Origin: Stomoxys calcitrans
Lineage: Eukaryota > Arthropoda > Insecta > Diptera > Muscidae
Assembly (NCBI RefSeq): GCF_963082655.1
Contig: NC_081552.1
Coordinates: 198,074,781 to 198,138,780, forward strand
Direction: 5' to 3'
Length of the DNA stretch: 64,000 nucleotides
Shown here: positions 1 through 64,000 of the stretch, piece by piece
How the letters are laid out: each line of letters starts with the position of its first letter
Numbering within the stretch: position 1 is the first letter of the stretch
Program-made: the position numbers and the translations under genes
The notes under the pieces: generated by a model
Told to the model about the DNA's origin: nothing
Databases searched by the model: none
Seen by the model: only the letters and a program-made list of their open reading frames with translations

Positions 1-2582
1 CAAAATAGCATGATTCGGAAAAATGGTTTTTTTTGCATATGTCCTTTTCAGGGTCGAAAACACTGTAACTTCTTCATACTTTCGAATTTCGGAAATCCAA
101 ATGCACTCCTGGATTCGAATTTCGAAGGGAAATCGCAAACTAATCAGTTTTTCTTAAAAATTTCACTTTTGATTTTTTTTGCCATTTTCGAGCAAAGGGG
201 GTAGCCTTTTGAAATGATCAATTTTTGATGCCCCAAAATTTTTTGAGTTGAGTTTACATTAGTGAAGTTTATATCTCAAAAATACGTTTAGCCCAATCCC
301 CCAGTTGTTTGTTCGAAAAAGAAGTTCAAAATAGCATGATTCGGAAAAATGGTTTTTTTTTGCATATGTCCTTTTCAGGGTCGAAAACACTGTAACTTCT
401 TCATACTTTTGAATTTCGGAAATCCAAATGCACTCCTGGATTCGAATTTCGAAAAGAAATCGTAAACTAATAAGTTTTTCTTAAAAATTTCACTTTTGAT
501 TTTTTTGCCATTTTCGAGCAAAGGGGGTAGCCTTTTGAAATGATCAATTTTTGATGCCCCAAAATTTTTTGAGTTGAGTTTACATTAGTGAAGTTTATAT
601 CTCAAAAATACGTTTAGCCCAATCCCTCAGTTGTTTGTTCGAAAAACAAGTTCAAAATAGCATGATTCGGAAAATTTGTTTTTTTTGGCATATGTCCTTT
701 TCAGGGTCGAAAACACTGTAACTTCTTCATACTTTCGAATTTCGGAAATCCAAATGCACTCCTGGATTCGAATTTCGAAGAGAAATCGTAAACTAATTAG
801 TTTTTCTTAAAAATTTCACTTTTGATTTTTTTTGCCATTTTCGAGCAAAGGGGGTAGCCTTTTGAAATGATCAATTTTTGATGCCCCAAAATTTTTTGAG
901 TTGAGTTTACATTAGTGAAGTTTATATCTCAAAAATATGTTTAGCCCAATCCCTCAGTTGTTTGTTCGAAAAACAAGTTCAAAATAGCATGATTCGGAAA
1001 AATGGTTTTTTTTGGCATATGTCCTTTTCAGGGTCGAAAACACTGTAACTTCTTCATACTTTCGAATTTCGGAAATCCAAAAGCACTCCTGGATATGAAT
1101 TTCGAGGAGAAATCGTAAACTTATTAGTTTTTCTTAAAAATTTCACTTTTGATTTTTTTTGCCATTTTCGAGCAAAGGGGGTAGCCTTTTGAAATGATCA
1201 ATTTTTGATGCCCCAAAATTTTTTGAGTTGAGTTTACATTAGTGAAGTTTATATCTCAAAAATTCGTTTAGCCCAATCCTTCAGTTGTTTGTTCGAAAAA
1301 AAAGTTCAAAATAGCATGATTCGGAAAAATGTTTTTTTTTGCATATGTCCTTTTCAGGGTCGAAAACACTGTAACTTCTTCATACTTTCGAATTTCGGAA
1401 ATCCAAATGCACTCCTGGATTCGAATTTCGAAGAGAAATCGTAAACTAATTAGTTTTTCTTAAAAATTTCACTTTTGATTTTTTTTGCCATTTTCGAGCA
1501 AAGGGGGTAGCCTTTTGAAATGATCAATTTTTGATGCCCCAAAATTTTTTGAGTTGAGTTTACATTAGTGAAGTTTATATCTCAAAAATATGTTTAGCCC
1601 AATCCCTCAGTTGTTTGTTCGAAAAACAAGTTCAAAATAGCATGATTCGGAAAATTTGTTTTTTTTTGCATATGTCCTTTTCAGGGTCGAAAACACTGTA
1701 ACTTCTTCATACTTTCGAATTTCGGAAATCCAAATGCACTCCTGGATTCGAATTTCGAAGAGAAATCGTAAACTAATTAGTTTTTCTTAAAAATTTCACT
1801 TTTGATTTTTTTGCCATTTTCGAGCAAAAGGGGTAGCCTTTTGAAATGATAAATTTTTGATGCCCCAAAATTTTTTGAGTTGAGTTTACATTAGTGAAGT
1901 TTATATCTCAAAACTACGTTTAGCCCAATCCCCCAGTTGTTTGTTCGAAAAACAAGTTCAAAATAGCATGATTCGGAAAAATGTTTTTTTTTTTGCATAT
2001 GTCCTTTTCAGGGTCGAAAACACTGTAACTTCTTCATACTTTCGAATTTCGGAAATTCAAATGCACTCCTGGATTCGAATTTCGAAGAGAAATCGTAAAC
2101 TAATTAGTTTTTCTTAAAAATTTCACTTTTGATTTTTTTGCCATTTTCGAGCAAAGGGGGTAGCCTTTTGAAATGATCAATTTTTGATGCCCCAAAATTT
2201 TTTGAGTTGAGTTTACATTAGTGAAGTTTATATCTCAAAAATACGTTTAGCCCAAACCCCCCAGTTGTTTGTTCGAAAAACAAATTCAAAATAGCATGAT
2301 TCGGAAAAAATGTTTTTTTTTTGGCAAATGTCCTTTTCAGGGTCGAAAACACTGTAACTTCTTCATACTTTCGAATTTCGGAAATTCAAATGCACTCCTG
2401 GATTCGAATTTCGAAGAGAAATCGTAAACTAATTAGTTTTTCTTAAAAATTTCACTTTTGATTTTTTTTGCCATTTTCGAGCAAAGGGGGTAGCCTTTTG
2501 AAATGATCAATTTTTGATGCCCCAAAATTTTTTGAGTTGAGTTTACATTAGTGAAGTTTATATCTCAAAAATACGTTTAGCC

Positions 2583-5500
2583 CAATTCCCCAGTTGTTTG
2601 TTCGAAAAAGAAGTTCAAAATAGCATGATTCGGAAAAATGGTTTTTTTTGCATATGTCCTTTTCAGGGTCGAAAACACTGTAACTTCTTCATACTTTTGA
2701 ATTTCGGAAATCCAAATGCACTCCTGGATTCGAATTTCGAAAAGAAATCGTAAACTAATAAGTTTTTCTTAAAAATTTCACTTTTGATTTTTTTGTCATT
2801 TTCGAGCAAAGGGGGTAGCCTTTGGAAATGATAAATTTTTGATGCCCCAAAATTTTTTGAGTTGAGTTTACATTAGTGAAGTTTATATCTCAAAAATACG
2901 TTTAGCCCAATCCCTCAGTTGTTTGTTCGAAAAACAAGTTCAAAATAGCATGATTCGGAAAATTTGTTTTTTTTGGCATATGTCCTTTTCAGGGTCGAAA
3001 ACACTGTAACTTCTTCATACTTTCGAATTTCGGAAATCCAAATGCACTCCTGGATTCGAATTTCGAAGAGAAATCGTAAACTAATTAGTTTTTCTTAAAA
3101 ATTTCTCTTTTGATTTTTTTTGCCATTTTCAAGCAAATGGGGGCCTTTTGAAATGATCAATTTTTAATGCCCCAAAATTTTTTGAGTTGAGTTTACATTA
3201 GTGAAGTTTATATCTTAAAAATATGTTTAGCCCAATCCCTCAGTTGTTTGTTCGAAAAACAAGTTCAAAATAGTATGATTCGGAAAATTTCTTTTTTTTT
3301 TGCATATGTCCTTTTCAGGGTCGAAAACACTGTAACTTCTTCATACTTTCGAATTTCGGAAATCCAAATGCACTCCTGGATTCGAATTTCGAAGAGAAAT
3401 CGTAAACTAATTAGTTTTTCTTAAAAATTTCACTTTTGATTTTTTTTGCCATTTTCGAGCAAAGGGGGTAGCCTTTTGAAATGATCAATTTTTGATGCCC
3501 CAACATTTTTTTGAGTTGAGTTTACATTAGTGAAGTTTATATCTCAAAAATACGTTTAGCCCAAACCCCCAGTTGTTTGTTCGAAAAAGAAGTTCAAAAT
3601 AGCATGATTCGAAAAAAATTTTTTTTTTGGCATATGTCCTTTTCAGGGTCGAAAACACTGTAACTTCTTCATACTTTCGAATTTCGGAAATCCAAATGCA
3701 CTCCTGGATACGAATTTCGAAGAGAAATCGTAAACTAATTAGTTTTTCTTAAAAATTTCACTTTTGATTTTTTTTGCCATTTTCGAGCAAAGGGGGTAGC
3801 CTTTTGAAATGATCAATTTTTGATGCCCCAAAATTTTTTGAGTTGAGTTTACATTAGTGAAGTTTATATCTCAAAAATTCGTTTAGCCCAATCCTTCAGT
3901 TGTTTGTTCGAAAAACAAGTTCAAAATGGCATGATTCGGAAAAATTTTTTTTTTTGCATATGTCTTTTTCAGGGTCGAAAACACTGTAACTTCTTCATAC
4001 TTTCGAATTTCGGAAATCCAAATGCACTCCTGGATTCGAATTTCGAAGAGAAATCGTAAACTAATTTGATTTTCTTAAAAATTTCACTTTTGATTTTTTT
4101 TGCCATTTTCGAGCAAAGGGGGTAGCCTTTTGAAATGATCAATTTTTGATGCCCCAACATTTTTTGAGTTGAGTTTACATTAGTGAAGTTTATATCTCAA
4201 AAATACGTTTAGCCCACACCCCCAGTTGTTTGTTCGAAAAACAAGTTCAAAATAGCATGATTCGGAAAAAATGTTTTTTTTGGCATATGTCCTTTTCAGG
4301 GTCGAAAACACTGTAACTTCTTCATACTTTCGAATTTCGGAAATCCAAATGCACTCCTGGATTCGAATTTCGAAGAGAAATCGTAAACTAATTAGTTTTT
4401 CTTAAAAATTTCACTTTTGATTTTTTTGCCATTTTCGAGCAAAGGGGGTAGCCTTTTGAAATGATAAATTTTTGATGCCCCAAAATTTTTTGAGTTGAGT
4501 TTACATTAGTGAAGTTTATATCTCAAAACTACGTTTAGCCCAATCCCCCAGTTGTTTGTTCGAAAAACAAGTTCAAAATAGCATGATTCGGAAAAATGTT
4601 TTTTTTTTGCATATGTCCTTTTCAGGGTCGAAAACACTGTAACTTCTTCATACTTTCGAATTTCGGAAATTCAAATGCACTCCTGGATTCGAATTTCGAA
4701 GAGAAATCGTAAACTAATTAGTTTTTCTTAAAAATTTCACTTTTGATTTTTTTGCCATTTTCGAGCAAAGGGGGTAGCCTTTTGAAATGATCAATTTTTG
4801 ATGCCCCAAAATTTTTTGAGTTGAGTTTACATTAGTGAAGTTTATATCTCAAAAATACGTTTAGCCCAAACCCCCCAGTTGTTTGTTCGAAAAACAAGTT
4901 CAAAATAGCATGATTCGGAAAAAATGTTTTTTTTTTGGCATATGTCCTTTTCAGGGTCGAAAACACTGTAACTTCTTCATACTTTCGAATTTCGGAAATC
5001 CAATTTTTAAGTTTTTCTTAAAAATTTCACTTTTGATTTTGTTTTTGCCATTTTCGAGCAAAGGGGGTAGCCTTTTGAAATGATCAATTTTTGATGCCCC
5101 AAAATTTTTTGAGTTGAGTTTACATTAGTGAAGTTTATATCTCAAAAATACGTTTAGCCCAATCCCTCAGTTGTTTGTTCGAAAAACAAGTTCAAAATAG
5201 CATGATTCGGAAAATTTGTTTTTTTTGGCATATGTCCTTTTCAGGGTCGAAAACACTGTAACTTCTTCATACTTTCGAATTTCGGAAATCCAAATGCACT
5301 CCTGGATTCGAATTTCGAAGAGAAATCGTAAACTAATTAGTTTTTCTTAAAAATTTCTCTTTTGATTTTTTTTGGCATTTTCGAGCAAATGGGGGCCTTT
5401 TGAAATGATCAATTTTTAATGCCCCAAAATTTTTTGAGTTGAGTTTACATTAGTGAAGTTTATATCTCAAAAATATGTTTAGCCCAATCCATCAGTTGTT

Positions 5501-6960
5501 TGTTCGAAAAACAAGTTCAAAATAGCATGATTCGGAAAATTTGTTTTTTTTTGCATATGTCCTTTTCAGGGTCGAAAACACTGTAACTTCTTCATACTTT
5601 CGAATTTCGGAAATCCAAATGCACTCCTGGATTCGAATTTCGAAGAGAAATCGTAAACTAATTAGTTTTTCTTCAAAATTTCACTTTTGATTTTTTTTGC
5701 CATTTTCGAGCAAAGGGGGTAGCCTTTTGAAATGATCAATTTTTGATGCCCCAACATTTTTTTGTGTTGAGTTTACATTAGTAAAGTTTATATCTCAAAA
5801 ATACGTTTAGCCCAAACCCCCAGTTGTTTGTTCGAAAAAGAAGTTCAAAATAGCATGATTCGAAAAAATTTTTTTTTTTGGCATATGTCCTTTTCAGGGT
5901 CGAAAACACTGTAACTTCTTCATACTTTCGAATTTCGGAAATCCAAAAGCACTCCTGGATATGAATTTCGAGGAGAAATCGTAAACTTATTAGCTTTTCT
6001 TAAAAATTTCACTTTTGATTTTTTTTGCCATTTTCGAGCAAAGGGGGTAGCCTTTTGAAATGATCAATTTTTGATGCCCCAAAATTTTTTGAGTTGAGTT
6101 TACATTAGTGAAGTTTATATCTCAAAAATTCGTTTAGCCCAATCCTTCAGTTGTTTGTTCGAAAAACAAGTTCAAAATGGCATGATTCGGAAAAAAATTT
6201 TTTTTTGCATATGTCTTTTTCAGGGTCGAAAACACTGTAACTTCTTCATACTTTCGAATTTCGGAAATCCAAATGCACTCCTGGATTCGAATTTCGAAGA
6301 GAAATCGTAAACTAATTTGATTTTCTTAAAAATTTCACTTTTGATTTTTTTTGCCATTTTCGAGCAAAGGGGGTAGTCTTTTGAAATGATCAATTTTTGA
6401 TGCCCCAAAATTTTTTGAGTTGAGTTTACATTAGTGAAGTTTATATCTCAAAAATACGTTTAGCCCAATCCCCTAGTTGTTTGTTCGAAAAACAAGTTCA
6501 AAATAGCATGATTCGGAAAAAATGTTTTTTTTGCATATGTCCTTTTCAGGGTCGAAAACACTGTAACTTCTTCATACTTTCGAATTTCGGAAATCCAAAT
6601 GCACTCCTGGATTCGAATTTCGAAGAGAAATCGTAAACTAATTTGATTTTCTTAAAAATTTCACTTTTGATTTTTTTTGCCATTTTCGAGCAAAGGGGGT
6701 AGCCTTTTGAAATGATCAATTTTTGATGCCCCAACATTTTTTGAGTTGAGTTTACATTAGTGAAGTTTATATCTCAAAAATACGTTTAGCCCAAACCCCC
6801 AGTTGTTTGTTCGAAAAACAAGTTTAAAATAGCATGATTCGGAAAAAATGTTTTTTTTGGCATATGTCCTTTTCAGGGTCGAAAACACTGTAACTTCTTC
6901 ATACTTTCGAATTTCGGAAATCCAAATGCACTCCTGGATTCGAATTTCGAAGAGAAATCG
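2583..6960. repeat. Satellite higher-order block, copy 1
   Basis: This stretch of about 13 monomers matches 8071-12450 at an offset of 5488-5492 bp. Shared private variants mark the pairing: CAATTCCCC (2583/8071), the ~50-bp deletion monomer (5001/10491), TCCCCTAG (6469/11961) and AGTTTAAA (6821/12313). The block is therefore a segmental duplication inside the array. Edges are approximate. Confidence 0.75.
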
Positions 6961-8070
6961 TAAACTAATTAGTTTTTTTTTCAAAAATTTCACTTTTGAT
7001 TTTTTTTTGCCATTTTCGAGCAAAGGGGTAGCCTTTTGAAATGATAAATTTTTGATGCCCCAAAATTTTTTGAGTTGAGTTTACATTAGTGAAGTTTATA
7101 TCTCAAAACTACGTTTAGCCCAATCCCCCAGTTGTTTGTTCGAAAAACAAGTTCAAAATAGCATGATTCGGAAAAATGTTTTTTTTTTGCATATGTCCTT
7201 TTCAGGGTCGAAAACACTGTAACTTCTTCATACTTTCGAATTTCGGAAATTCAAATGCACTCCTGGATTCGAATTTCGAAGAGAAATCGTAAACTAATTA
7301 GTTTTTCTTAAAAATTTCACTTTTGATTTTTTTTGCCATTTTCGAGCAAAGGGGGTAGCCTTTTGAAATGATCAATTTTTGATGCCCCAAAATTTTTTGA
7401 GTTGAGTTTACATTAGTGAAGTTTATATCTCAAAAATACGTTTAGCCCAAACCCCCCAGTTGTTTGTTCGAAAAACAAATTCAAAATAGCATGATTCGGA
7501 AAAAATGTTTTTTTTTTGGCAAATGTCCTTTTCAGGGTCGAAAACACTGTAACTTCTTCATACTTTCGAATTTCGGAAATCCAATTTTTAAGTTTTTCTT
7601 AAAAATTTCACTTTTGATTTTGTTTTTGCCATTTTCGAGCAAAGGGGGTAGCCTTTTGAAATGATCAATTTTTGATGCCCCAAAATTTTTTGAGTTGAGT
7701 TTACATTAGTGAAGTTTATATCTCAAAAATACGTTTAGCCCAAACCCCCCGGTTGTTTGTTCGAAAAACAAGTTCAAAATAGCATGATTCGGAAAAATGG
7801 TTTTTTTTTTTTGCATATGTCCTTTTCAGGGTCGAAAACACTGTAACTTCTTCATACTTTCGAATTTCGGAAATCCAAATGCACTCCTGGATTCGAATTT
7901 CGAAGGGAAATCGCAAACTAATCAGTTTTTCTTAAAAATTTCACTTTTGATTTTTTTGCCATTTTCGAGCAAAGGGGGTAGCCTTTTGAAATGATCAATT
8001 TTTGATGCCCCAAAATTTTTTGAGTTGAGTTTACATTAGTGAAGTTTATATCTCAAAAATACGTTTAGCC

Positions 8071-11000
8071 CAATTCCCCAGTTGTTTGTTCGAAAAAGAA
8101 GTTCAAAATAGCATGATTCGGAAAAATGGTTTTTTTTGCATATGTCCTTTTCAGGGTCGAAAACACTGTAACTTCTTCATACTTTTGAATTTCGGAAATC
8201 CAAATGCACTCCTGGATTCGAATTTCGAAAAGAAATCGTAAACTAATAAGTTTTTCTTAAAAATTTCACTTTTGATTTTTTTGTCATTTTCGAGCAAAGG
8301 GGGTAGCCTTTGGAAATGATCAATTTTTGATGCCCCAAAATTTTTTGAGTTGAGTTTACATTAGTGAAGTTTATATCTCAAAAATACGTTTAGCCCAATC
8401 CCTCAGTTGTTTGTTCGAAAAACAAGTTCAAAATAGCATGATTCGGAAAATTTGTTTTTTTTGGCATATGTCCTTTTCAGGGTCGAAAACACTGTAACTT
8501 CTTCATACTTTCGAATTTCGGAAATCCAAATGCACTCCTGGATTCGAATTTCGAAGAGAAATCGTAAACTAATTAGTTTTTCTTAAAAATTTCTCTTTTG
8601 ATTTTTTTTGCCATTTTCAAGCAAATGGGGGCCTTTTGAAATGATCAATTTTTAATGCCCCAAAATTTTTTGAGTTGAGTTTACATTAGTGAAGTTTATA
8701 TCTTAAAAATATGTTTAGCCCAATCCCTCAGTTGTTTGTTCGAAAAACAAGTTCAAAATAGTATGATTCGGAAAATTTCTTTTTTTTTTTGCATATGTCC
8801 TTTTCAGGGTCGAAAACACTGTAACTTCTTCATACTTTCGAATTTCGGAAATCCAAATGCACTCCTGGATTCGAATTTCGAAGAGAAATCGTAAACTAAT
8901 TAGTTTTTCTTAAAAATTTCACTTTTGATTTTTTTTGCCATTTTCGAGCAAAGGGGGTAGCCTTTTGAAATGATCAATTTTTGATGCCCCAACATTTTTT
9001 TGAGTTGAGTTTACATTAGTGAAGTTTATATCTCAAAAATACGTTTAGCCCAAACCCCCAGTTGTTTGTTCGAAAAAGAAGTTCAAAATAGCATGATTCG
9101 AAAAAAATTTTTTTTTTGGCATATGTCCTTTTCAGGGTCGAAAACACTGTAACTTCTTCATACTTTCGAATTTCGGAAATCCAAAAGCACTCCTGGATAC
9201 GAATTTCGAAGAGAAATCGTAAACTAATTAGTTTTTCTTAAAAATTTCACTTTTGATTTTTTTTGCCATTTTCGAGCAAAGGGGGTAGCCTTTTGAAATG
9301 ATCAATTTTTGATGCCCCAAAATTTTTTGAGTTGAGTTTACATTAGTGAAGTTTATATCTCAAAAATTCGTTTAGCCCAATCCTTCAGTTGTTTGTTCGA
9401 AAAACAAGTTCAAAATGGCATGATTCGGAAAAATTTTTTTTTTTGCATATGTCTTTTTCAGGGTCGAAAACACTGTAACTTCTTCATACTTTCGAATTTC
9501 GGAAATCCAAATGCACTCCTGGATTCGAATTTCGAAGAGAAATCGTAAACTAATTTGATTTTCTTAAAAATTTCACTTTTGATTTTTTTTGCCATTTTCG
9601 AGCAAAGGGGGTAGCCTTTTGAAATGATCAATTTTTGATGCCCCAACATTTTTTGAGTTGAGTTTACATTAGTGAAGTTTATATCTCAAAAATACGTTTA
9701 GCCCACACCCCCAGTTGTTTGTTCGAAAAACAAGTTCAAAATAGCATGATTCGGAAAAAATGTTTTTTTTGGCATATGTCCTTTTCAGGGTCGAAAACAC
9801 TGTAACTTCTTCATACTTTCGAATTTCGGAAATCCAAATGCACTCCTGGATTCGAATTTCGAAGAGAAATCGTAAACTAATTAGTTTTTCTTAAAAATTT
9901 CACTTTTGATTTTTTTGCCATTTTCGAGCAAAGGGGGTAGCCTTTTGAAATGATAAATTTTTGATGCCCCAAAATTTTTTGAGTTGAGTTTACATTAGTG
10001 AAGTTTATATCTCAAAACTACGTTTAGCCCAATCCCCCAGTTGTTTGTTCGAAAAACAAGTTCAAAATAGCATGATTCGGAAAAATGTTTTTTTTTTGCA
10101 TATGTCCTTTTCAGGGTCGAAAACACTGTAACTTCTTCATACTTTCGAATTTCGGAAATTCAAATGCACTCCTGGATTCGAATTTCGAAGAGAAATCGTA
10201 AACTAATTAGTTTTTCTTAAAAATTTCACTTTTGATTTTTTTGCCATTTTCGAGCAAAGGGGGTAGCCTTTTGAAATGATCAATTTTTGATGCCCCAAAA
10301 TTTTTTGAGTTGAGTTTACATTAGTGAAGTTTATATCTCAAAAATACGTTTAGCCCAAACCCCCCAGTTGTTTGTTCGAAAAACAAGTTCAAAATAGCAT
10401 GATTCGGAAAAAATGTTTTTTTTTTTGGCATATGTCCTTTTCAGGGTCGAAAACACTGTAACTTCTTCATACTTTCGAATTTCGGAAATCCAATTTTTAA
10501 GTTTTTCTTAAAAATTTCACTTTTGATTTTGTTTTTGCCATTTTCGAGCAAAGGGGGTAGCCTTTTGAAATGATCAATTTTTGATGCCCCAAAATTTTTT
10601 GAGTTGAGTTTACATTAGTGAAGTTTATATCTCAAAAATACGTTTAGCCCAATCCCTCAGTTGTTTGTTCGAAAAACAAGTTCAAAATAGCATGATTCGG
10701 AAAATTTGTTTTTTTTGGCATATGTCCTTTTCAGGGTCGAAAACACTGTAACTTCTTCATACTTTCGAATTTCGGAAATCCAAATGCACTCCTGGATTCG
10801 AATTTCGAAGAGAAATCGTAAACTAATTAGTTTTTCTTAAAAATTTCTCTTTTGATTTTTTTTGGCATTTTCGAGCAAATGGGGGCCTTTTGAAATGATC
10901 AATTTTTAATGCCCCAAAATTTTTTGAGTTGAGTTTACATTAGTGAAGTTTATATCTCAAAAATATGTTTAGCCCAATCCATCAGTTGTTTGTTCGAAAA

Positions 11001-12450
11001 ACAAGTTCAAAATAGCATGATTCGGAAAATTTGTTTTTTTTTTGCATATGTCCTTTTCAGGGTCGAAAACACTGTAACTTCTTCATACTTTCGAATTTCG
11101 GAAATCCAAATGCACTCCTGGATTCGAATTTCGAAGAGAAATCGTAAACTAATTAGTTTTTCTTCAAAATTTCACTTTTGATTTTTTTTTGCCATTTTCG
11201 AGCAAAGGGGGTAGCCTTTTGAAATGATCAATTTTTGATGCCCCAACATTTTTTTGAGTTGAGTTTACATTAGTAAAGTTTATATCTCAAAAATACGTTT
11301 AGCCCAAACCCCCAGTTGTTTGTTCGAAAAAGAAGTTCAAAATAGCATGATTCGAAAAACTTTTTTTTTTTGGCATATGTCCTTTTCAGGGTCGAAAACA
11401 CTGTAACTTCTTCATACTTTCGAATTTCGGAAATCCAAAAGCACTCCTGGATATGAATTTCGAGGAGAAATCGTAAACTTATTAGCTTTTCTTAAAAATT
11501 TCACTTTTGATTTTTTTTGCCATTTTCGAGCAAAGGGGGTAGCCTTTTGAAATGATCAATTTTTGATGCCCCAAAATTTTTTGAGTTGAGTTTACATTAG
11601 TGAAGTTTATATCTCAAAAATTCGTTTAGCCCAATCCTTCAGTTGTTTGTTCGAAAAACAAGTTCAAAATGGCATGATTCGGAAAAAAATTTTTTTTTGC
11701 ATATGTCTTTTTCAGGGTCGAAAACACTGTAACTTCTTCATACTTTCGAATTTCGGAAATCCAAATGCACTCCTGGATTCGAATTTCGAAGAGAAATCGT
11801 AAACTAATTTGATTTTCTTAAAAATTTCACTTTTGATTTTTTTTGCCATTTTCGAGCAAAGGGGGTAGTCTTTTGAAATGATCAATTTTTGATGCCCCAA
11901 AATTTTTTGAGTTGAGTTTACATTAGTGAAGTTTATATCTCAAAAATACGTTTAGCCCAATCCCCTAGTTGTTTGTTCGAAAAAAAAGTTAAAAATAGCA
12001 TGATTCGGAAAAATGTTTTTTTTTTGCATATGTCCTTTTCAGGATCGAAACACTGTAACTTCTTCATACTTTCGAATTTCGGAAATCCAAATGCACTCCT
12101 GGATTCGAATTTCGAAGAGAAATCGTAAACTAATTTGATTTTCTTAAAAATTTCACTTTTGATTTTTTTTGCCATTTTCGAGCAAAGGGGGTAGCCTTTT
12201 GAAATGATCAATTTTTGATGCCCCAACATTTTTTGAGTTGAGTTTACATTAGTGAAGTTTATATCTCAAAAATACGTTTAGCCCAAACCCCCAGTTGTTT
12301 GTTCGAAAAACAAGTTTAAAATAGCATGATTCGGAAAAAATGTTTTTTTTGGCATATGTCCTTTTCAGGGTCGAAAACACTGTAACTTCTTCATACTTTC
12401 GAATTTCGGAAATCCAAATGCACTCCTGGATTCGAATTTCGAAGAGAAAT
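8071..12450. repeat. Satellite higher-order block, copy 2
   Basis: Partner of 2583-6960, offset about 5.49 kb (17 monomers, one of them shortened). Beyond it the TCCCCTAG variant recurs again at about 12600, some 640 bp after 11961, indicating a further two-monomer duplication. Confidence 0.75.
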
Positions 12451-14440
12451 CGTAAACTAATTAGTTTTTCTTAAAAATTTCACTTTTGATTTTTTTGCCA
12501 TTTATCGCCTTTTGAAATGATAAATTTTTGATGCCCCAAAATTTTTTGAGTTGAGTTTACATTAGTGAAGTTTATATCTCAAAAATACGTTTAGCCCAAT
12601 CCCCTAGTTGTTTGTTCGAAAAAAAAGTTCAAAATAGCATGATTCGGAAAAATGTTTTTTTTTGCATATGTCCTTTTCAGGGTCGAAAACACTGTAACTT
12701 CTTCATACTTTCGAATTTCGGAAATCCAAATGCACTCCTGGATTCGAATTTCGAAGAGAAATCGTAAACTAATTTGATTTTCTTAAAAATTTCACTTTTG
12801 ATTTTTTTTGCCATTTTCGAGCAAAGGGGGTAGCCTTTTGAAATGATCAATTTTTGATGCCCCAACATTTTTTGAGTTGAGTTTACATTAGTGAAGTTTA
12901 TATCTCAAAAATACGTTTAGCCCAAACCCCCAGTTGTTTGTTCGAAAAACAAGTTCAAAATAGCATGATTCGGAAAAAATTTTTTTTTGGCCTATGTCCT
13001 TTTCAGGGTCGAAAACACTGTAACTTCTTCATACTTTCGAATTTCGGAAATCCAAATGCACTCCTGGATTCGAATTTCGAAGAGAAATCGTAAACTAATT
13101 AGTTTTTCTTAAAAATTTCACTTTTGATTTTTTTGCCATTTTCGAGCACTTTTTCGAGCCTTTTGAAATGATAAATTTTTGATGCCCCAAAATTTTTTGA
13201 GTTGAGTTTACATTAGTGAAGTTTATATCTCAAAACTACGTTTAGCCCAATCCCCCAGTTGTTTGTTCGAAAAACAAGTTCAAAATAGCATGATTCGGAA
13301 AAATGTTTTTTTTTTGCATATGTCCTTTTCAGGGTCGAAAACACTGTAACTTCTTCATACTTTCGAATTTCGGAAATTCAAATGCACTCCTGGATTCGAA
13401 TTTCGAAGAAAAATCGTAAACTAATTAGTTTTTCTTAAAAATTTCACTTTTGATTTTTTTTACCATTTTCGAGCAAAGGGGGTAGCCTTTTGAAATGATC
13501 AATTTTTGATGCCCCAAAATTTTTTGAGTTGAGTTTACATTAGTGAAGTTTATATCTCAAAAATACGTTTAGCCCAATCCCCCAGTTGTTTGTTCGAAAA
13601 ACAAGCTCAAAATAGCATGATTCGGAAAAATTGTTTTTTTGGCATATGTCCTTTTCAGGGTCGAAAACACTGTAACTTCTTCATACTTTCGAATTTCGGA
13701 AATCCAAAAGCACTCCTGGATTCGAATTTCGAAGAGAAATCGTAAACTTATTAGTTTTTCTTAAAAATTTCACTTTTGATTTTTTTGCCATTTTCGAGCA
13801 AAGGGGGTAGCCTTTTGAAATGATCAATTTTTGATGCCCCAAAATTTTTTGAGTTGAGTTTACATTAGTAAAGTTTATATCTCAAAAATACGTTTAGCCC
13901 AATCCCCCAGTTGTTTGTTCGAAAAACAAGCTCAAAATAGCATGATTCGGAAAATTGTTTTTTTTTTGCATATGTCCTTTTCAGGGTCGAAAACACTGTA
14001 ACTTCTTCATACTTTCGAATTTCGGAAATCCAAATGCACTCCTGGATTCGAATTTCGAAGAGAAATCGTAAACTAATTAGTTTTTTTTTCAAAAATTTCA
14101 CTTTTGATTTTTTTTTGCCATTTTCGAGCAAAGGGGTAGCCTTTTGAAATGATCAATTTTTGATGCCCCAAAATTTTTTGAGTTGAGTTTACATTAGTGA
14201 AGTTTATATCTCAAAAATACGTTTAGCCTAATCCCCCAGTTGTTTGTTCGAAAAAGAAGTTCAAAATAGCATGATCCGGAAAAATTGTTTTTTTTTTTGC
14301 ATATGTCCTTTTCAGGGTCGAAAACACTGTAACTTCTTCATACTTTCGAATTTCGGAAATCCAAAAGCACTTCTAGATTCGAATTTCGAAGAGAAATCGT
14401 AAACTAATTAGTTTTTCTTAAAATTTTCACTTTTGATTAA

Positions 14441-21529: not shown

Positions 21530-22482
21530 TTGGGTTGCCCAAAAAGTAATTGTCGGTAATATAGTAGTAATATAGTCGGCGTTGACAAATTTTTTCAACG
21601 GCTTGTGACTCTGTAATTGCTTTCTTTCTTCTGTCAGTTATCAGCTGTTACTTTTAGCTTGCTTTAGAAAAAAAGTGCCCGAAATTTTGTTTACATTTGT
21701 TTGTTTGGCGTCAATTTTAATATGGGTACCACATGTATTGAAAGAAATTCATTTAACAAACCGAATCAACGCTTATGATATGCATCTTAAACGCAATGAA
21801 TTCGATCCGTTTTTAAAACGAATCATAACTGGAGATGAAAAATGGATTGTTTACAACAACGTTAGTCGAAAACGATCATGGTCCAAGCATGGTGAACCAG
21901 CTCAAACCACTTCAAAGGCTGATATCCACTAAAAGAAGGTTGTGCTGTCTGTTTGGTGGGATTGCAAGGGTGTGGTATATTTTGAGCTGCTTTCAAGGAA
22001 CCAAACGATTAATTCGGATGTTTACTGTCAACAATTGGACAAATTGAATACAGCCATCAAGGAGAAGCGACCAAAATTGGTCAATCGTAAAGGTGTCATA
22101 TTCCACCAGGACAACGCTAGACCGCACACATCTTTGGTCACTCTCCAAAAACTGAGAGAGCTTGGCTGGGAACTTTTGATGCATCCACCATATAGCCCTG
22201 ACCTTGCACCATCAGACTACCATTTATTTCGATCTTTGCAGAACTCCTTAAATGGTAAAACTTTCGGCAATGATGAGGCTATAAAATCGCACTTGGTTCA
22301 GTTTTTTGCAGATAAAGGCCAGAAGTTCTATGAGCGTGGAATACTAAATTTGCCAGGAAGATGGCAAAAGGTTATCGAACAAAATGGCAATTACATATTT
22401 GATTAAAGTTCATTCTAAGTTTTATTAAAAATGCATTTACTTTCTTTTAAAAAAATCCGCAATTACTTTGTGGGCAACCCAA
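21530..22482 (+). mobile_element. mariner element, internally deleted
   Basis: Terminal inverted repeats TTGGGTTGCCCAAAAAGTAA at 21530 and its complement TTACTTTGTGGGCAACCCAA ending at 22482, flanked by TA (21528-21529 and 22483-22484). The inside encodes the C-terminal part of a DD34D transposase in one frame from about 21738 to 22406: ITGDEKWIVY (first Asp), HQDNARPH (second Asp), HPPYSPDLAPSDYHLF (third Asp). One in-frame TAA at 21930-21932 (from a likely CAA) splits the frame. The N-terminal helix-turn-helix half is missing, so the copy is about 950 bp instead of about 1.3 kb. It is inactive, though its ends could still be substrates. Confidence 0.93.
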
Positions 22483-30605: not shown

Positions 30606-32960
30606 CACCATCGACCGACCACCCGACTTCATAACCTCTGAACGCCGGAGGTTTATCAATCAGAAGAAGGCAGATTGAGCTAGCTTCAGAGAGTATACCA
30701 ATCGCCCTTTCAGTAAACTGCCACCCCACTCAGATGTGCTAGTGGCCGAGAGGAAATTCCGAGACATCATTAACGCAGCAACCGCTCGCTTTATACCAGC
30801 CGGTCGAATACCCCAAGTGCGGCCCAATTTCCCGGCGCAGGCAGTGGTACTCGAAGACGAGCGCGATGGGATTCGTTCGATGGACCCCACAAACCCCAGA
30901 ATCAGCGAGCTTAATCTGGAAATAAATAGGGTAGTCAACGAACATAAGCGGAATTTGTGGCTGGAACACTTGGAGCAATGTAACCGGTGTAGGCAAGCTG
31001 TGGTCTACTGTTAAATCACTCTCGAACCCCGGTAGACAAGATGACAGGACCTCAGTCACTTTTGCCGAAATAACCGTGACTGATCCGAAGATATGCGCCA
31101 GGTTGTTCAACCGTCAATTTGTTGTGCATCCCGAGAGTGACCAAGGAGGAGAGCCATTCGCCGTATTCGTGGTCTTCGAGCCGATGAACAGCCATCACAA
31201 TTTTCCGTGGGCAAAGTAACGATTGTCATCCGTGACGCCAAATCATCTAAGGCGTTGGGCGCCGACGGAATCTCTACATTGATGTGGAAGAATCTGGATT
31301 CACCAGGAGTTGAGTACCTTACTACTGTCCTCAACCTATCTTTGAACACTCTTATAGTTCCCGATGTCTGGAAAATGGGCAGAGTAATCGCGCTACTGAA
31401 GCCTGGTAAGGACCTGAGTTTGGGGGAGTCGTACAGACCGATCTCCCTTCTCTCACCAGTGGCAAAGACGCTTGAAGCATTACTCCTCCTGAGCCTTGTA
31501 AGAGAATTTCCATTCGTCGAACATCAACATGGATTTCGAAGACTGCATAGCACAACAACAGCTTTGCATGCCATCATCGCACACATTTGCCTAGGCTTCA
31601 ATCGGCCCAGACCATGTGATAGGACGGTCCTCGTTGCACTGGACCTATCGAAGGCATTCGACACGGTCAGCCATGTCAAATTATTTGAGGACATCGCTAA
31701 CACGTCCCTCAAGCCAGGCCTGAAACGTTGGTTCGCGAATTATCTGTGTGGTCGCCAGTCATTTGTGGAATTTAGGGATAAGAAGTCGAAGCATCATAGA
31801 GTGAAACAGAGGGTTCCCCAAGGTGGGGTGATATCTCAGGCACTGTTTAACCTCTACCTATCCTCCATTCCACCCCCTTCAGACGGCATAGAGATCGTAT
31901 CATATGCGGACGACTGTACGATCATGGCTCCCCACCCATTGTTGACATCTGTGATAGGTTAAGCGTCTACCTCATATTACGCTGCAAGAAATCTGAAGAT
32001 ATCTGCCACCAAATCTTCACCCACATTGTTCACTACAAATATCCGTGAGGTGAATACTGAGCTGACTGTGATGGTCAATGGAGAAACGATTCCGACCATC
32101 AAGTGTCCCAAAATACTTGGCGTCGCATTTGACAGCTCTTACACATTCTCCCCGCATGCCACAGTAATTTGCGATAAAGTCAAAAGTAGAAACAAGGTCC
32201 TCCAGTCACTAGCTGGCAGCACTTGGGATGCAGACAAAGAAACCTTGTTGACCACGTACAAAGCAATTGGCCGGTCTGTGGTAAGTTATGCAGCGCCAGT
32301 GTGGTCTCGTCAACATTGTGACACGCAGTGTGTCGCCCTCCGAATTGCGAGGGGCTGTCTCCTCAGTTTTTTTGTGGACCACTTCTACCAGGAGACAAAG
32401 ATTCTACCAGTGCGAAGACATAACTACATGCTGTCTAAGCAATACCTTTTGGGCTGTTATCGCAGAGACTATCCAAATCATCAGATATCCACCGCCCAGA
32501 AGCCTCAAGATAGATCTACATGATCTAGAGCGTGAGGTTTAGCGCTACAAGAGAGAACCTCTAAATCAAGCGGCATATCAAACAGGTCTAGACAACATTC
32601 ATGCTGACACGGTAGCAGATGCGGTAAATGGCTACCGGATGAATGAAGTCCTTGGAGAACGACCGCCTCCCATTACACCTGAAGAAATTGACATCCCCCG
32701 GCAAACCAGAGTAGTTCTGGCTTAATTACGTTCCGGCAGATGCAGCCGCCTCAACTCCTACAGAGCTAGGATTGATGCCGACGTGCAAGATGTATGTTCC
32801 GATTGTAACCAGGGACCGCCCGATACACGTCACCTGTTTATCAGCCCAGTCAGACCCACTCAATTCAGACCCAGATCGCTGTGGACGCACCCCATCTTAG
32901 TCGCAGAGTTCTGGGTTATAAATTGTGAACTGTGTGGCTTAACCTAGCTTAAAAGTGTTC
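30606..32960 (+). mobile_element. LINE-A copy, most complete in window (linker, RT, C-terminal Cys block)
   Basis: Pieces in order: linker (INQKKADWASFREYTN, then LVAERKFRDIINAATARFIP, 30640-30980); RT frame 31207-31962 with SKALGADGIS, SYRPISLLSPVAKT, HQHGFRRLHSTTTALH, LDLSKAFDTVSH, VPQGGVISQALFN and the catalytic SYADDCTIM (about 31897-31923); thumb and connection frame 32026-32523 with CPKILGVAFDSSYTFSPH and KSRNKVLQSLAG; and a C-terminal Cys block near 32790-32860 (CSDCNQGPPDTRHLF). Frameshifts after 30980, near 31140 and 31960, and stops beyond 32523, make it a dead copy. It is 5'-truncated inside the endonuclease. Clade is uncertain (Jockey/I group); it would need a tree. Confidence 0.87.
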
Positions 32961-33340
32961 TTAAGTATTATTTTTCTTGATTGACTCATCCTGCCTGTAT
33001 GACAGGAAAACACCATGAAAGGAAACTATAGAACATCTGATGAGTGTTTGACACCCACTGACAACCGAGACAAGTTGTTCAACTTTTCAAAGGAGTTTGT
33101 TTTTTAGCTATAGAAATTAGAAGGTATTATCCTTTTATTGTTCCCTTCTCCATCTCCTATGGAGATTAATCTCCATGGATTGAATTGTCTATGTAAATCT
33201 GATATAGAAAAGATAATATTAAAATGTTAATCAAAATTAAACTTCAAAGAACTTGTTTATAGGAATCTATTGTAATATTAGCCAAAGTTCCTATAAAAAT
33301 TAAAGTGCAACTAAATTTGGTGTAATAAGTTTGTAAAACA
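32961..33340. other. Intron sequence upstream of the ribozyme repeats
   Basis: AT-rich, with a dyad ATGGAGATTAATCTCCAT near 33158-33175. No gene seen. It could belong to the 5' flank of the hammerhead element, but nothing shows that directly. Confidence 0.4.
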
Positions 33341-33572
33341 CCATTACACTGATCACTAATTATTGAGTAGGTGAGGCATTAACTTTTGGTGGCATTGCAA
33401 GCTAATGAGGCCCTTGGCAAGGGCCGAAATCGCGATCCTTGCCGTCCGCCCCCAATACATTTAACATACCACAATTGCTGAGACTCTTTAAAGGGTTTTT
33501 CTTGTTTTGCTTTTCAATTTAAAATAGAGGCAAGAAATATGAACACATTGGTCTAAGCTGGCTAATCCAACA
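33341..33572 (+). repeat. Direct repeat 1 of hammerhead-bearing element
   Basis: About 230 bp that recurs at 33856 with clear similarity: CCATTACACT..TCACTAAT at the start; then the ribozyme; CACAATTG..AGACTCTTTAAAGGGTTTT; TTGTTTTGCTTT; and ACACATTGGTCTA.GCTGG at the end. The two repeats are offset by about 515 bp. No protein frame lies between them. Confidence 0.8.
33388..33453 (+). ncRNA. Hammerhead ribozyme (type I), copy 1, probably inactive
   Basis: Elements in order: stem I 5' side GGTGGC-ATT-GCAAG (33388-33401), core CTAATGA (33402-33408), stem II GGCCCTTGGCAAGGGCC (33409-33425; 7 perfect pairs), GAAA (33426-33429), stem III ATC-GC-GAT using the last A of GAAA, H17 = C at 33437 (predicted cleavage 3' of it), and stem I 3' side CTTGC-CGTCC-GCCCCC (33438-33453). 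GCAAG pairs with CTTGC, and GGTGGC with GCCCCC at five of six positions, leaving the internal loop typical of type I motifs. The core has A where the canonical CTGATGA has the invariant G5, which should abolish cleavage. The fold is seen in sequence; activity is inferred. Confidence 0.8.
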
Positions 33573-33855
33573 TTAAAATTAAGTAATTTTTGTTACAAAA
33601 CTCAATAAGTTCAAACCGAATGAATGCACGAACAGCACGTCAAAAAGTATGTAGCCGGAATATGCTCATATTGAAAGGTTGTTCTATGGCAAGCAAAGTT
33701 TGTCTGGATAACAAGTCTTTGACTTTGTGTGTGTTGTTGATGTAAAATGTCTATTTGAAGAGATGTAGGCTGTTAGATTTTAATTTTTTCTTACTGCGCC
33801 ATGAGAAAAGGTTGAATAAGGAAACCGAACGTTTCATTCGAAAGGTATGGTTCTA

Positions 33856-34053
33856 CCATTACACTACTCACTAATTAATGACTAGGTGGAAGCATGTCAT
33901 CTTTTGGTGCCATTGTAAGCTGATGAGGACCATGACAAAGGCCGAAATCGCGTTCCTTGCAGCCCGCCCCAATGCATTTGACACACTACAATTGTTAAGA
34001 CTCTTTAAAGGGTTTTAGTTGTTTTGCTTTGTTATTTGAAGTAGAGGCCAGAA
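33856..34053 (+). repeat. Direct repeat 2 of hammerhead-bearing element, split by T1
   Basis: Second copy of the repeat at 33341. Its match stops at AGAAATA (34053) where a T1 element enters, and resumes at ACACATTGGTCTAGGCTGG (35131-35165) after the T1. The T1 insertion is therefore younger than the repeat. Confidence 0.8.
33906..33970 (+). ncRNA. Hammerhead ribozyme (type I), copy 2, canonical core but decayed stem II
   Basis: Stem I 5' side GGTGCC-ATT-GTAAG (33906-33919), canonical core CTGATGA (33920-33926), stem II region GGACCATGACAAAGGCC (33927-33943, with two mismatches relative to copy 1), GAAA (33944-33947), stem III ATC-GC-GTT (one mismatch), C at 33955 as H17, and stem I 3' side CTTGC-AGCCC-GCCCC (33956-33970). 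GTAAG pairs with CTTGC through one G-U pair. The two copies have decayed at different places, so the inferred ancestor has an intact fold. Predicted cleavage sites are 518 bp apart, the size of one monomeric RNA. Confidence 0.8.
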
Positions 34054-35130
34054 ATAAGTTTGGCCTTGTCGAATCTTGGGAATCCACCATGGATTCTGCA
34101 AAAAATTTACACAAAATAAATTTAGCTGAATGGCATAATTTTATTCTACATATCAAACTTCTGTCAAAATAGCAAAAATTAAAGCTTCTAGGAACCGAAC
34201 AAGGATGATCGAGAGAGCGGTTTACATGGGAGCTATATCAGGTTATAGACTAATTTGGACCGTAGCCAAATCGTCTTGTAAGGGCTCAAAAAGTCAAATG
34301 GGAGAATCGGTTTATATGAGAGTTATGTCCGGTTATTGACCGATTTGAATCGTATTAGGCAGGGGTATTGAAAGTCATAACACAGCACTACATGCAAAGT
34401 TTCAGCCAAATCGGACGAAAATTGCGGCTTGTAAGGGGTCAAGAAGTCAAATCGGGAGATCGGTTTATGCGTGAGCTATATCAGGTTATTGAGCGATTTG
34501 AAGCCTACTTGGCAGAGTTATTGGATAATTTCAGCCAAATCTGGTAAAAATTGCGGCTTGTAAGGGGTCCAGAATTCAAATCGGGAGATCGGTTTATATG
34601 GGAGTTATATCAGGTCATAGACAGATTTGGCCCGAACTTAGCACAGTTGTTGGAAGCAATAACAGAACATCGCATGCAAAATTTTAGCATAATTGGAAAA
34701 AAATTGCGGCTTCCAGGGGCTCAAGAAGTCAAATCGGGAGATCGGTTTATATGGGAGCTATATCAGGCTATAGACCGATTTATACCGTACTAGGCACAGT
34801 TGTTGGATAATTTCAGCCAAATGGGGTAAAAATTGCGGCTTGTAACAGCTCAAGGAGTATATGGGAGCTATATGCAAATTTGAACCGATTTGGCCCATTT
34901 GCAATCGCCTACGCCCTACAGCAATATTAAGTATCTGTGCAAAATGTGCAAGCGGCTAGCTTTACGCGTTTGACTGCTATCGTGATTTCGACAGACGGAC
35001 GGACGGACTAGATCGACTTAGAACATCGAGACGATCAAGAATATATATACATTATGGGGTCTAAGGCGAAAATTTCGAGTGGTTACAAATGGAATGACTA
35101 GATTTGTATACCCTATGATGGTGGGTATAA
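34054..35130 (+). mobile_element. T1 element inserted in hammerhead repeat 2
   Basis: Starts AAGTTTGGCCTTGTCGAATCTTGGG, a mutated T1 hairpin, continues with core repeats (AAGTCAAATCGGGAGATCGG, TATATGGGAGCTATATCAGG) and a GACGGACGGACGGAC block, and ends GGTGGGTATAAAA. The interrupted repeat on both sides fixes its edges well, which makes this the best-bounded T1 copy in the window. Confidence 0.78.
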
Positions 35131-35426
35131 AAACACATTGGTCTAGGCTGGTTAATCCTACAACAAAATGAACTGAGTTTGAAAATTTCAAAATTTTTTT
35201 TATAAATGACTAATGAAAAAATGTTTTTGTTTTTCTTTGAAAACTCGAATTTCGCCTCAGCGAACATTATGCTGTGTAACTTAGATTAAAATTCTATACT
35301 TTTTTAGTGAAGATCCTAAACGATTGAGATATCTTAACTTCCAATTCTTGGCAAAAAAAAACTTTTACTTAAACAAACAAACAGTAAAACTAAAACAAAA
35401 AAGAAAGTAATAACAAACACACACCA

Positions 35427-56600: not shown

Positions 56601-58784
56601 TCTATTCTATTGCACCACAGTGCAATATTCACCACCATGGGTATATTCATCTTATTTTACTTTAATTGGCTATGACAGAACATTTGTCCCTTTAGCCGAA
56701 CGTAGAATAGCGTTCCAAGCGCCTCGATCTTCTGTGCTCATTCTAAAATCTCTGACACCCAGTTTCGAGGTGTCTCCCACCACTTGCTTCTTCCATCCGG
56801 CTTTTGGTCGTCCCGGTTTGCGTGTACCACCGTTATCGCATTCAAAAGACATTTTTGCTGGAGCTTCTTCATTCATTCTGAGAACACGACGTAGCCAACA
56901 CAACCGTGGTATTTTGATGCTTGTAACTATGCTATCGTCGTCTAACAGCTCGTGATTCATACAACACTTATAGTCTCCATTAACGACGATTATATTCTCC
57001 AATCCGATTTCGCTGAAATTTGACATAGTGACCTATTCTAGGCTTTTCGACATCCGTATCCGATATGGTTCAGATCGTTCTACATTAGATATATAGCTGC
57101 CATATAGACCCAAGACCCAAGGGCTTATAAAAGGCGCATTTATTACCCGATTTCTCCGAAATTTGGCACAAGGAACTATGTTAGGCTTTCTGACATCCGT
57201 TCCCTATACGGTTTAGATCGGTCTATAGTCGGATATAGCTGCCATATACACCGATCTGCAGATTTTAGTCCTTGGACCCATAAAAGCAGCATTTATTATC
57301 TGATTTCGCTGAAATGTGACACCGTGAGTTGTGTTACGACCTGCAACATCCGCATTCAATATGGCCCCCATCGGTCTATATTTGGATATAGCTGTCATAT
57401 AGAGCGACCTGCCGTTTTAAGGTCTTGGGCTTATAAAAGGTGCACATTATCCGATTTCACTGATATTTTATATATTTATATATTTTATATATATTTTACA
57501 AAGAATCTTTCTCTCAAACACTCCAAGAACTACCTCGTCTGCTTTCACAAGTACCCATGCCTCGGAACCATATAACAACACGGATAGTATCAGTGTCTAG
57601 TACAATGTAATCTTCGTCTGTCAAGAGGTGGCATTGTTTTTAAACTGCTTAGTAAATCCAAAGTAGCACCTACTTGCACAGTATTATTCTTCGCCTTATT
57701 TCAAAACTGGTGTCATTCGTTTCGGTTATGGCGTTGTCGAGGCAGATGAAGTTGCTGACTATCTCAAAGTTGTGGTTCCCAACTTTCTCCATTTTCTGTA
57801 TCAGATCAGTTGTGCAAGGCGTTTTGGAAGTTGATACCAACCATTTCGTTTTATCTCCATTTACTGCCAGACCCAGTTTCACTGACTCTCTTTCGATTCT
57901 TTCAAAGGCTGCAGTTACTACTTCTGGTGACCGACCCAGGGAAACGATGTCGTCGGCATAGGCGTGTAGCACGTGTTCTCTTGTGATTAGTGTGCCATAT
58001 CTATTCACATCTGCATCTCGTATAATTTTCTCCAGTAGGATATTAAAGAGATCACACGATAGGCTGTCTCCTTGTCTGGAATCTCGTTTGGTATTAAATG
58101 GTTCTGAGAGATTCTTTCCTATTCCTACTGAGGAATGCGTATCAGCAAGTGTCATCCTGCAGAATCTTTTTAATTTTGCAGGGATACCAAACTCAGACAT
58201 GGCTTGAAATAACTTTGAAGGTAAAGGAGTATCGAAGACGGCTTTGTAGTCAACAAAGAGGTGGTAGGTGTTGATTGTCCTTCTCGGGTCTTTTCCAGGA
58301 TTTGGTGTGAATATCTGGTCTATGGTGGATTCACCAGGTCTAAAACCGCATTGATGGTTTTAATCTTTCACAAAGTACGCTCGAGAGTATCTTGTGTGCG
58401 ATGGGGAGTAGACTTATTCCTCTGTAGTTGGCACATTCCGCCTTGTCTCCTTTCTTGTGTACGGGACATAATACGCTGAGGTTCCAATTATCGGGTATGC
58501 GTTCTTCTAGCCAGGTTGCGCAGACAAGCTGATGCATACGCCTTATCCGCGTGTCGCCTCCGGTTTTAAAACGTTCAGTCGGCAACCCGTCGGCTTCTGC
58601 TGCCTTGTTATTTTTCAGTCGGGTCACTGCTACTTCGACCTCATTCTGACTAGGATGTAGACATTCTATACCATCATCAGGGATTGGTTCTGCGGTATCC
58701 TCTTCGCCGCCATCGTCGGACACTAGCAGCTGGGTAAAATGTTCTTTCCATATCCTCAGCACACTATAGGTATCAGTTACCAGT
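56601..58784 (-). mobile_element. LINE-F (RTE-like) RT, split by T1
   Basis: N-terminal RT piece at 58340-58762: LRIWKEHFTQLL, LKNNKAAEADGLPTERFK and HKKGDKAECANYRGISLL. Palm piece at 57670-58200: RQGDSLSCDLFNILLEKIIR, HAYADDIVSLGRS (catalytic YADD) and LGLAVNGDKTKWLVS. C-terminal piece at 56670-56960: LCWLRRVLRMNEEAPAK and TRKPGRPKAGWK, then EDRGAWNAIL. The T1 at 57005-57475 separates palm and C-terminus. Motif style (NYRGISLL, RQGD, EDRGAW) is that of RTE-like or related elements. Frameshift near 58340 and others. Confidence 0.78.
57005..57475 (-). mobile_element. T1 fragment inside LINE-F
   Basis: GATTTCGCTGAAATTTGACAT, TATAGCTGCCATATAGACC and TATAAAAGGCGCATTTATTACC are inverted T1 core repeats. 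They sit between the palm and C-terminal parts of LINE-F, so T1 moved after LINE-F. Confidence 0.7.
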
Positions 58785-63739: not shown

Positions 63740-64000
63740 TCATACAAACTTAGAAGAGATTCCAAAGAAATTTTGTCTTTAGAGAAAATTTCATGGAAAT
63801 TTTGTCTTTAGAGAAAATTTCATGGAAATTTTGTCTTTAGAGAAAATTTCACGGAAATTTTGTCTTTAGAGAAAATTTCATGGAAATTTTGTCTTTAGAG
63901 AAAATTTCATGGAAATTTTGTCTTTAGAGAAAATTTCATAGAAATTTTGTCTTTAAAGGAAATTGCATGGAAATTTTGTCTTTAGAGGAAATTGCATGGA
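63740..64000 (+). repeat. 29-bp tandem repeat, running off the window
   Basis: GAAATTTTGTCTTTAGAGAA followed by AATTTCATG repeats with a 29-bp period, about eight to nine copies with point variants (CACGG, AGGAAATTGC). The last copies are slightly diverged and the array continues past 64000. Confidence 0.9.

Follow-up and report, generated by a model that had tools for sequence, protein, structure and literature searches.

The window analysed here, a stretch of 64,000 nucleotides from the genome of the muscid fly Stomoxys calcitrans, harbours an element with a type I hammerhead ribozyme in each of two direct repeats. We consider it, with a probability of roughly 0.7, to be a non-autonomous retrozyme-like retroelement, built from a 515-bp non-coding unit with one hammerhead per repeat, whose RNA would be cut to unit length and then copied by the target-primed reverse transcriptase of another element. 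The window element itself is an old, broken and dead copy.

The anatomy of this copy is readable despite its age. All its parts lie on the forward strand. The first repeat, R1 (33340..33590), aligns over 251 bp with the second, R2, and extends in other copies about 35 nt further, to about 33625 (as judged by eye). It contains hammerhead copy 1 (33388..33450; core at 33402-33408, with A at position 5), whose parts follow in the order GGTGG-loop-GCAAG, CTAATGA, stem II, GAAA, ATC-GC-GAT, C and CTTGC-loop-CCGCC. A body of 264 bp (33591..33854), in which no coding domain was found and which is present in other copies, separates it from R2. Hammerhead copy 2 (33906..33968, core intact) lies in the first part of R2 (33855..34056, 202 bp). 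The predicted cleavage sites, after 33437 and after 33955, are 518 bp apart, with an element period of 515 bp; both motifs, their arrangement in direct repeats and this distance are as the sequence-only reading had described them. R2 is split by 1.07 kb of a repeat common in the window (34057..35131, AAGTTYGGCC...GGTGGGTATAAAA). Directly after the 3' end of this repeat follow 49 bp (35132..35180) that match 33542-33590, the sequence immediately beyond the first repeat as originally delimited, at 40 of 49 positions (E 1.6e-7). Because the 1.07-kb repeat is a later insertion, R2 consists of 202 plus 49 bp, and is 251 bp long like R1. Direct repeats had been recognised earlier, but were ended at 34053, short of their 251 bp and of the split in R2.

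The inserted repeat (ACAAGTAAAAGCGTGCTAAGTTCGGCC...GGTGGGTATAAAA, 5'-truncated in the window) also sits in the hammerhead element at other places of the genome, namely L013/L049, L016, L020, L027 and L042, where it lies at the identical or an almost identical nucleotide of R, after AAGAAATA. At L020, two repeats have that site occupied. The element tail resumes directly after the inserted repeat at L049, and does not resume at L051 (the L027 place). Either a target preference or a composite source element would give such a recurrent insertion site. Elsewhere in the window there are a satellite array (1-14438; 326-bp unit, about 44.5 copies, about 32% G+C), a transposase fragment (21942-22406; Pfam Transposase_1) and a 29-bp tandem repeat that reaches the window end (63767-64000; 8.1 copies, 96% matches). 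Two reverse transcriptase fragments (Pfam RVT_1) lie at 31207-31962 and 57670-58200. The first, upstream of the element, appears on inspection to be LINE-type and not Penelope-type, with RVT_1 as its family match; three of the 120 relatives listed for it have a species name, namely Cyamophila willieti, a psyllid and the one with the highest score, Musca autumnalis and Cochliomyia hominivorax.

Both window hammerheads have decayed. Copy 1 was correctly described as having a core with A for G5, and this A is private to it, as the other 50 of 51 aligned rows have G. Its 7-pair stem II is present too, but is rare (7 pairs in 3/51 rows), the stem of the family having 4 pairs. In copy 2, the canonical core and the damaged stem II (3/4 pairs) were confirmed, but stem III is not full as had been thought, with one mismatch leaving 2/3 pairs. 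Of the 199 sites compared between R1 and R2, 31 are different (K2P 0.176). The differences are spread about evenly, with 10/62 within the hammerhead motif and 21/137 outside, which is the pattern that decay following insertion should leave. A tree of 39 repeats places the window repeats as sisters, with moderate support (83/70), within a group that has G-C at the base of stem I. The suggested independent decay of both copies from one intact ancestor fits this sisterhood and divergence.

With neither window copy complete, the hammerhead likeness could be suspected to be a chance feature of an ordinary repeat. A descriptor scan of the window matched exactly these two hammerheads, also when relaxed to its loosest setting (up to one mismatch in the core, at least 4 pairs in stem I and at least 2 in stem II); a scan for type III motifs gave none. 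The loosest type I setting gave 3073 matches in 5000 dinucleotide-shuffled windows, therefore that level alone means little. The covariance-model match proposed earlier as a check did not materialise, as no Rfam family reached its gathering score in the window, nor in 20 of the 39 loci fetched from the genome; with a permissive setting, copy 2 matched Hammerhead_3 below threshold, scoring 15.8 bits where 48.5 are required (E 3). These results would suit a chance origin. At the level of copy 1 (stem I 5, stem II at least 5 and stem III 3 pairs), though, the 5000 shuffles gave 17 matches, two of them with its outer stem. The level of copy 2 (exact core, 5 pairs in stem I and at least 2 in stem II) was reached 46 times, 34 of these with an outer stem of at least 3. 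A separate run of 200 shuffles gave 13 matches at a loose level and none at that of copy 1. Folding energy is uninformative as evidence for a ribozyme here: the 518-nt window RNA is not unusually stable (z -0.87), and the single hammerheads tested do not beat shuffles.

The conservation of the core among the genomic copies also speaks against chance. The invariant core of type I hammerheads is CUGANGA...GAAA...UH. We aligned 51 hammerhead rows, two from the window and 49 genomic ones, the latter being those of 75 R pieces that cover the hammerhead. C3, A13 and A15.1 are present in all 51 rows, U4, G5, A6, G8, A9, A14 and U16.1 in 50, and G12 in 49, while H17 is C in 48, A in two and U in one. 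The whole core is intact in 43/51 rows, with window copy 2 passing and copy 1 failing at position 5. The 4-pair stem II is complete in 26/51 rows, and the core together with all inner pairs of stems I, II and III in 15/51. In 37 genomic rows and over the first 200 positions, mean conservation was 0.984 for the 12 core columns, 0.933 for the repeat outside the motif, and 0.905 for the other columns of the motif; one of 20000 random column sets reached the core mean.

The stems point in the same direction. Over the 51 rows, 90.6% of the pair cells are paired (outer stem I 88.4%, inner stem I 94.1%, stem II 87.5%, stem III 92.2%), in the fold of a type I hammerhead, with helix I open-ended and helices II and III as hairpins. 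The covariation score was 0.164 against a shuffled mean of 0.114, a value reached by none of 500 shuffles, and slid structures scored at most 0.073. Three pairs, the third in one row alone, have changed on both sides, a count that does not exceed the shuffles, as 397 of 500 reach it. The basal pair of stem I is U-A in 39 rows, G-C in 10 and GU/UG in two, and the second pair of stem II is G-C in 33 and C-G in six, unpaired in 10 and gapped in two. Each switch needs a single change on the 39-repeat tree (support 97/88 for stem I and 84/62 for stem II), so the compensated pairs represent few events, not many. In the test that the sequence-only reading had proposed, other copies thus restore G5 and carry compensatory stem changes, in two pairs. 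Given a core conserved over 51 rows and these compensated pairs, we regard a chance likeness as the least credible of the readings considered.

Querying the host assembly (1.07 Gb, 297 contigs) with the window element gave at least 56 matches from 40 scored of 915 candidate places, the window's own element included. The family is therefore multi-copy. We fetched 39 places, chosen by likeness to the window and hence a sample biased to window-like copies. According to blast maps, same-orientation R pieces flank a body in 20/39 of them, many are 5'-truncated, and in six the 5' side bears an inverted R (L009, L026, L041, L042, L043 and L045). Three repeats, the most seen among the 39 places, occur at L012. 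Copies are partial multimers of the 515-bp non-coding unit, which has a G+C content of 37%. On the tree, both repeats of an element group together in the case of L011, L015 and L042, and less firmly in that of the window; those of L010 do not group as sisters. The branches of some repeats are short, the lowest values being 0.0085-0.01 changes per column. L024 and L027, near-identical copies separated by about 133 kb on contig C1, share their upstream flank and represent either a duplication or two copies within one same repeat.

The ends of the copies carry information on how they were inserted. The 3' end of the element reads ...TGTGACCAAACTAAAGAAGCGC...GAATGAAT, and many of the copies listed end near ...AAAGAAGCGCAAAAGAATGAAT, about 35 nt beyond the 251-bp repeat, with others ending earlier. 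The 5' starts, taken from blast edges, are scattered and form two clusters, one around unit positions 246-256 and another, adjoining the common 3' end, around 274-293. There is no accumulation of starts at the predicted cleavage site (unit position 98/99), where a single one was found (L028, at 98), so insertions of unit length do not have this site as their boundary. Matches between the two flanks of at least 8, 10 and 12 nt occurred in 12, 5 and 3 of the 39 places, where mismatched flanks led us to expect 6.6, 0.9 and 0.16. Flush target duplications at the mapped ends were found in 4/39 places (L010, 14 nt; L015, 15 nt; L034 and L043, 11 nt each). The flank match of L017 (12 nt, one of the three longest) does not sit at the element ends. 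For the window copy, the 10-nt AATAAGTTTG (33324-33333 and 34053-34062) was considered as a target duplication and rejected, its right half being the start of the later insertion; this match between the left flank and the junction of R2 with the insert is equalled by 13 of 20000 random flank pairs. A candidate at the corrected ends, AGTTTG.AAA, is weaker (209 of 20000 equal it) and is not claimed.

Taken together, tandem units, 5' truncation, 5' inversion and flush duplications of 11-15 nt point to target-primed, non-LTR-style retrotransposition. They fit poorly with a small LTR retrotransposon (TRIM) or a plant-type LTR retrozyme with the hammerhead inside its LTRs. The arrangement R-body-R does resemble that of plant LTR retrozymes, described with direct repeats of 300-400 bp and a non-coding centre of 300-600 bp (PMC4918200). 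However, the tested stretch after R1 lacks the TGG of a primer binding site (PBS), and the 62 nt ahead of R2 hold purine runs of 6-9 nt, none of which ends at R2, as a polypurine tract (PPT) would. Target duplications are 11-15 nt long instead of 4, and the many 5'-truncated copies, the three repeats of L012 and the inverted repeat in 6/39 places also disagree, as does a hammerhead of type I and not type III. An LTR origin is thus very improbable.

The main rival is an internally deleted Penelope-like element without a circular stage. In such an element the repeats would be pseudo-LTRs with a Penelope-type hammerhead, and linear RNA would be moved by a Penelope protein. Inverted repeats beside copies are a Penelope trait, as seen here in 6/39 places. 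Twin priming, known from LINE biology, yields 5'-inverted pieces as well, and those found here are compatible with it. Repeats in tandem or partial tandem with a hammerhead, the layout of the 20/39 places with R on both sides, are reported for Penelope-like elements (PMC11167929, PMC7761336). For one Penelope element, insertion in vitro is reported to have persisted in hammerhead mutants, and none of the RNA-seq reads to have had its start or end at the cleavage site (PMC11167929). The latter matches the missing 5' starts in our copies, and their absence at the cleavage site leans toward a Penelope derivative. On the other side, no Penelope coding remnant was found in or beside the element. 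Helix III is present with 3 pairs, and hammerheads of Penelope-like elements are described as usually lacking it (PMC7761336, PMC6155905). A search of the whole genome for the GIY-YIG family gave one match from 16 candidates, which weighs little against a Penelope origin, as divergent domains could be missed. The element could be a non-autonomous Penelope derivative, although we consider this rather unlikely.

In the retrozyme-like reading, the element would be moved by a helper enzyme supplied from elsewhere. No coding domain was detected in the body, in agreement with the original statement that no reverse transcriptase or GIY-YIG frame lies between the repeats, and a Pfam scan of 31 of the 34 window ORFs of at least 100 aa found no GIY-YIG domain. 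In viral and prokaryote collections, no related sequence was found with the exact patterns tried. The absence of a detected coding domain, the tandem units, the long target duplications and the 5' truncation all support the non-autonomous, retrozyme-like character first proposed for the window element.

For transcription, cleavage, dimer action, circularisation and the helper enzyme, we infer the following scheme. Source copies would be transcribed across two or more units, and each hammerhead would cut after C17, releasing unit-length RNA of about 515-518 nt. Cleavage would probably be most efficient if two hammerheads paired with each other through their palindromic helix III strands (AUCGCGAU). 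The unit RNA would probably be ligated to a circle, and this circle probably copied by a borrowed target-primed reverse transcriptase, either Penelope-like or from a LINE. A reverse transcriptase running round the circle would produce insertions of 1.5-mers or longer with the arrangement R-body-R.

The dimer step is suggested by helix III itself, an 8-nt palindrome (ATCGCGAT) that is perfect in 37/51 rows. Its two loop bases are G in 49/51 and C in 51/51 rows. A hairpin loop needs no conservation, whereas a palindrome pairing two tandem hammerheads would, hence the conserved "loop" suggests that the hammerheads may cleave as dimers. Dimer action through a weak helix III was reported for newt and axolotl hammerheads (PMC7229834; PMC6155905), and by analogy it may apply to the window family. 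A more specific proposal, which we put forward tentatively and consider possible rather than likely, is a lineage of double-hammerhead insect retrozymes, with an 8-bp palindromic helix III between tandem ribozymes, inserting by target-primed copying of circular RNA and leaving 1.5-mers and 5' inversions. If true, the copies would be a genome-wide record of circular-RNA retrotransposition.

In the available portions of the literature, hammerhead elements of insects receive brief mention, as retrozyme-like repeats in general and as type III motifs in Diptera. With a multi-copy type I family that includes short-branch repeats, an insect would become available for studying the role of hammerheads in retroelements, their possible action as dimers in vivo, and the identity of the reverse transcriptase that mobilises circular-RNA elements without a protein of their own. 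Its insertion footprints, that is 1.5-mers, 5' inversions and duplications of 11-15 nt, constrain the mechanism of mobilisation.

The accessible texts name insects once among the hosts of retrozyme-like repeats (PMC7229834), and report type III hammerheads in Diptera, including Musca domestica (PMC7936874). The latter resemble our family in residing in fly genomes and in the internal loop of stem I, and differ in topology. A search limited to open-licence PMC papers yielded no account of a muscid element family with type I hammerheads, in line with the earlier remark that no such description was known. Plant LTR retrozymes (PMC4918200) share with the window family terminal direct repeats with hammerheads around a non-coding centre; the fly family differs in its type I instead of type III hammerhead, in the lack of visible PBS and PPT, in long target duplications and in 5' truncation. 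Penelope-like elements with pseudo-LTR hammerheads likewise have partial-tandem copies with one hammerhead per repeat (PMC11167929, PMC7761336). Compared with them, the family showed no reverse transcriptase or GIY-YIG frame, its palindromic helix III is longer than the minimal form, and its unit is far too short for autonomy.

The closest anatomy is that of the metazoan non-LTR retrozymes (Cervera and de la Pena 2020, PMC7229834). These too carry type I hammerheads in tandem repeats that are short, non-coding and low in G+C content, and have target duplications longer than 4 bp, a weak helix III that may need dimers, and no LTR signals, as in the window copy where PBS and PPT were looked for. 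Unit-length linear and circular RNA in tissues is a trait of metazoan retrozymes, and such RNA would be expected of the fly family under the scheme above. Unlike metazoan retrozymes, it shows no long arrays, with at most three repeats in the 39 places. Its unit of 515-518 nt exceeds the 170-400 nt of animal retrozymes, which is a reported range and no mechanistic requirement. The family is probably best placed with the retrozymes, on its anatomy and not on monomer size.
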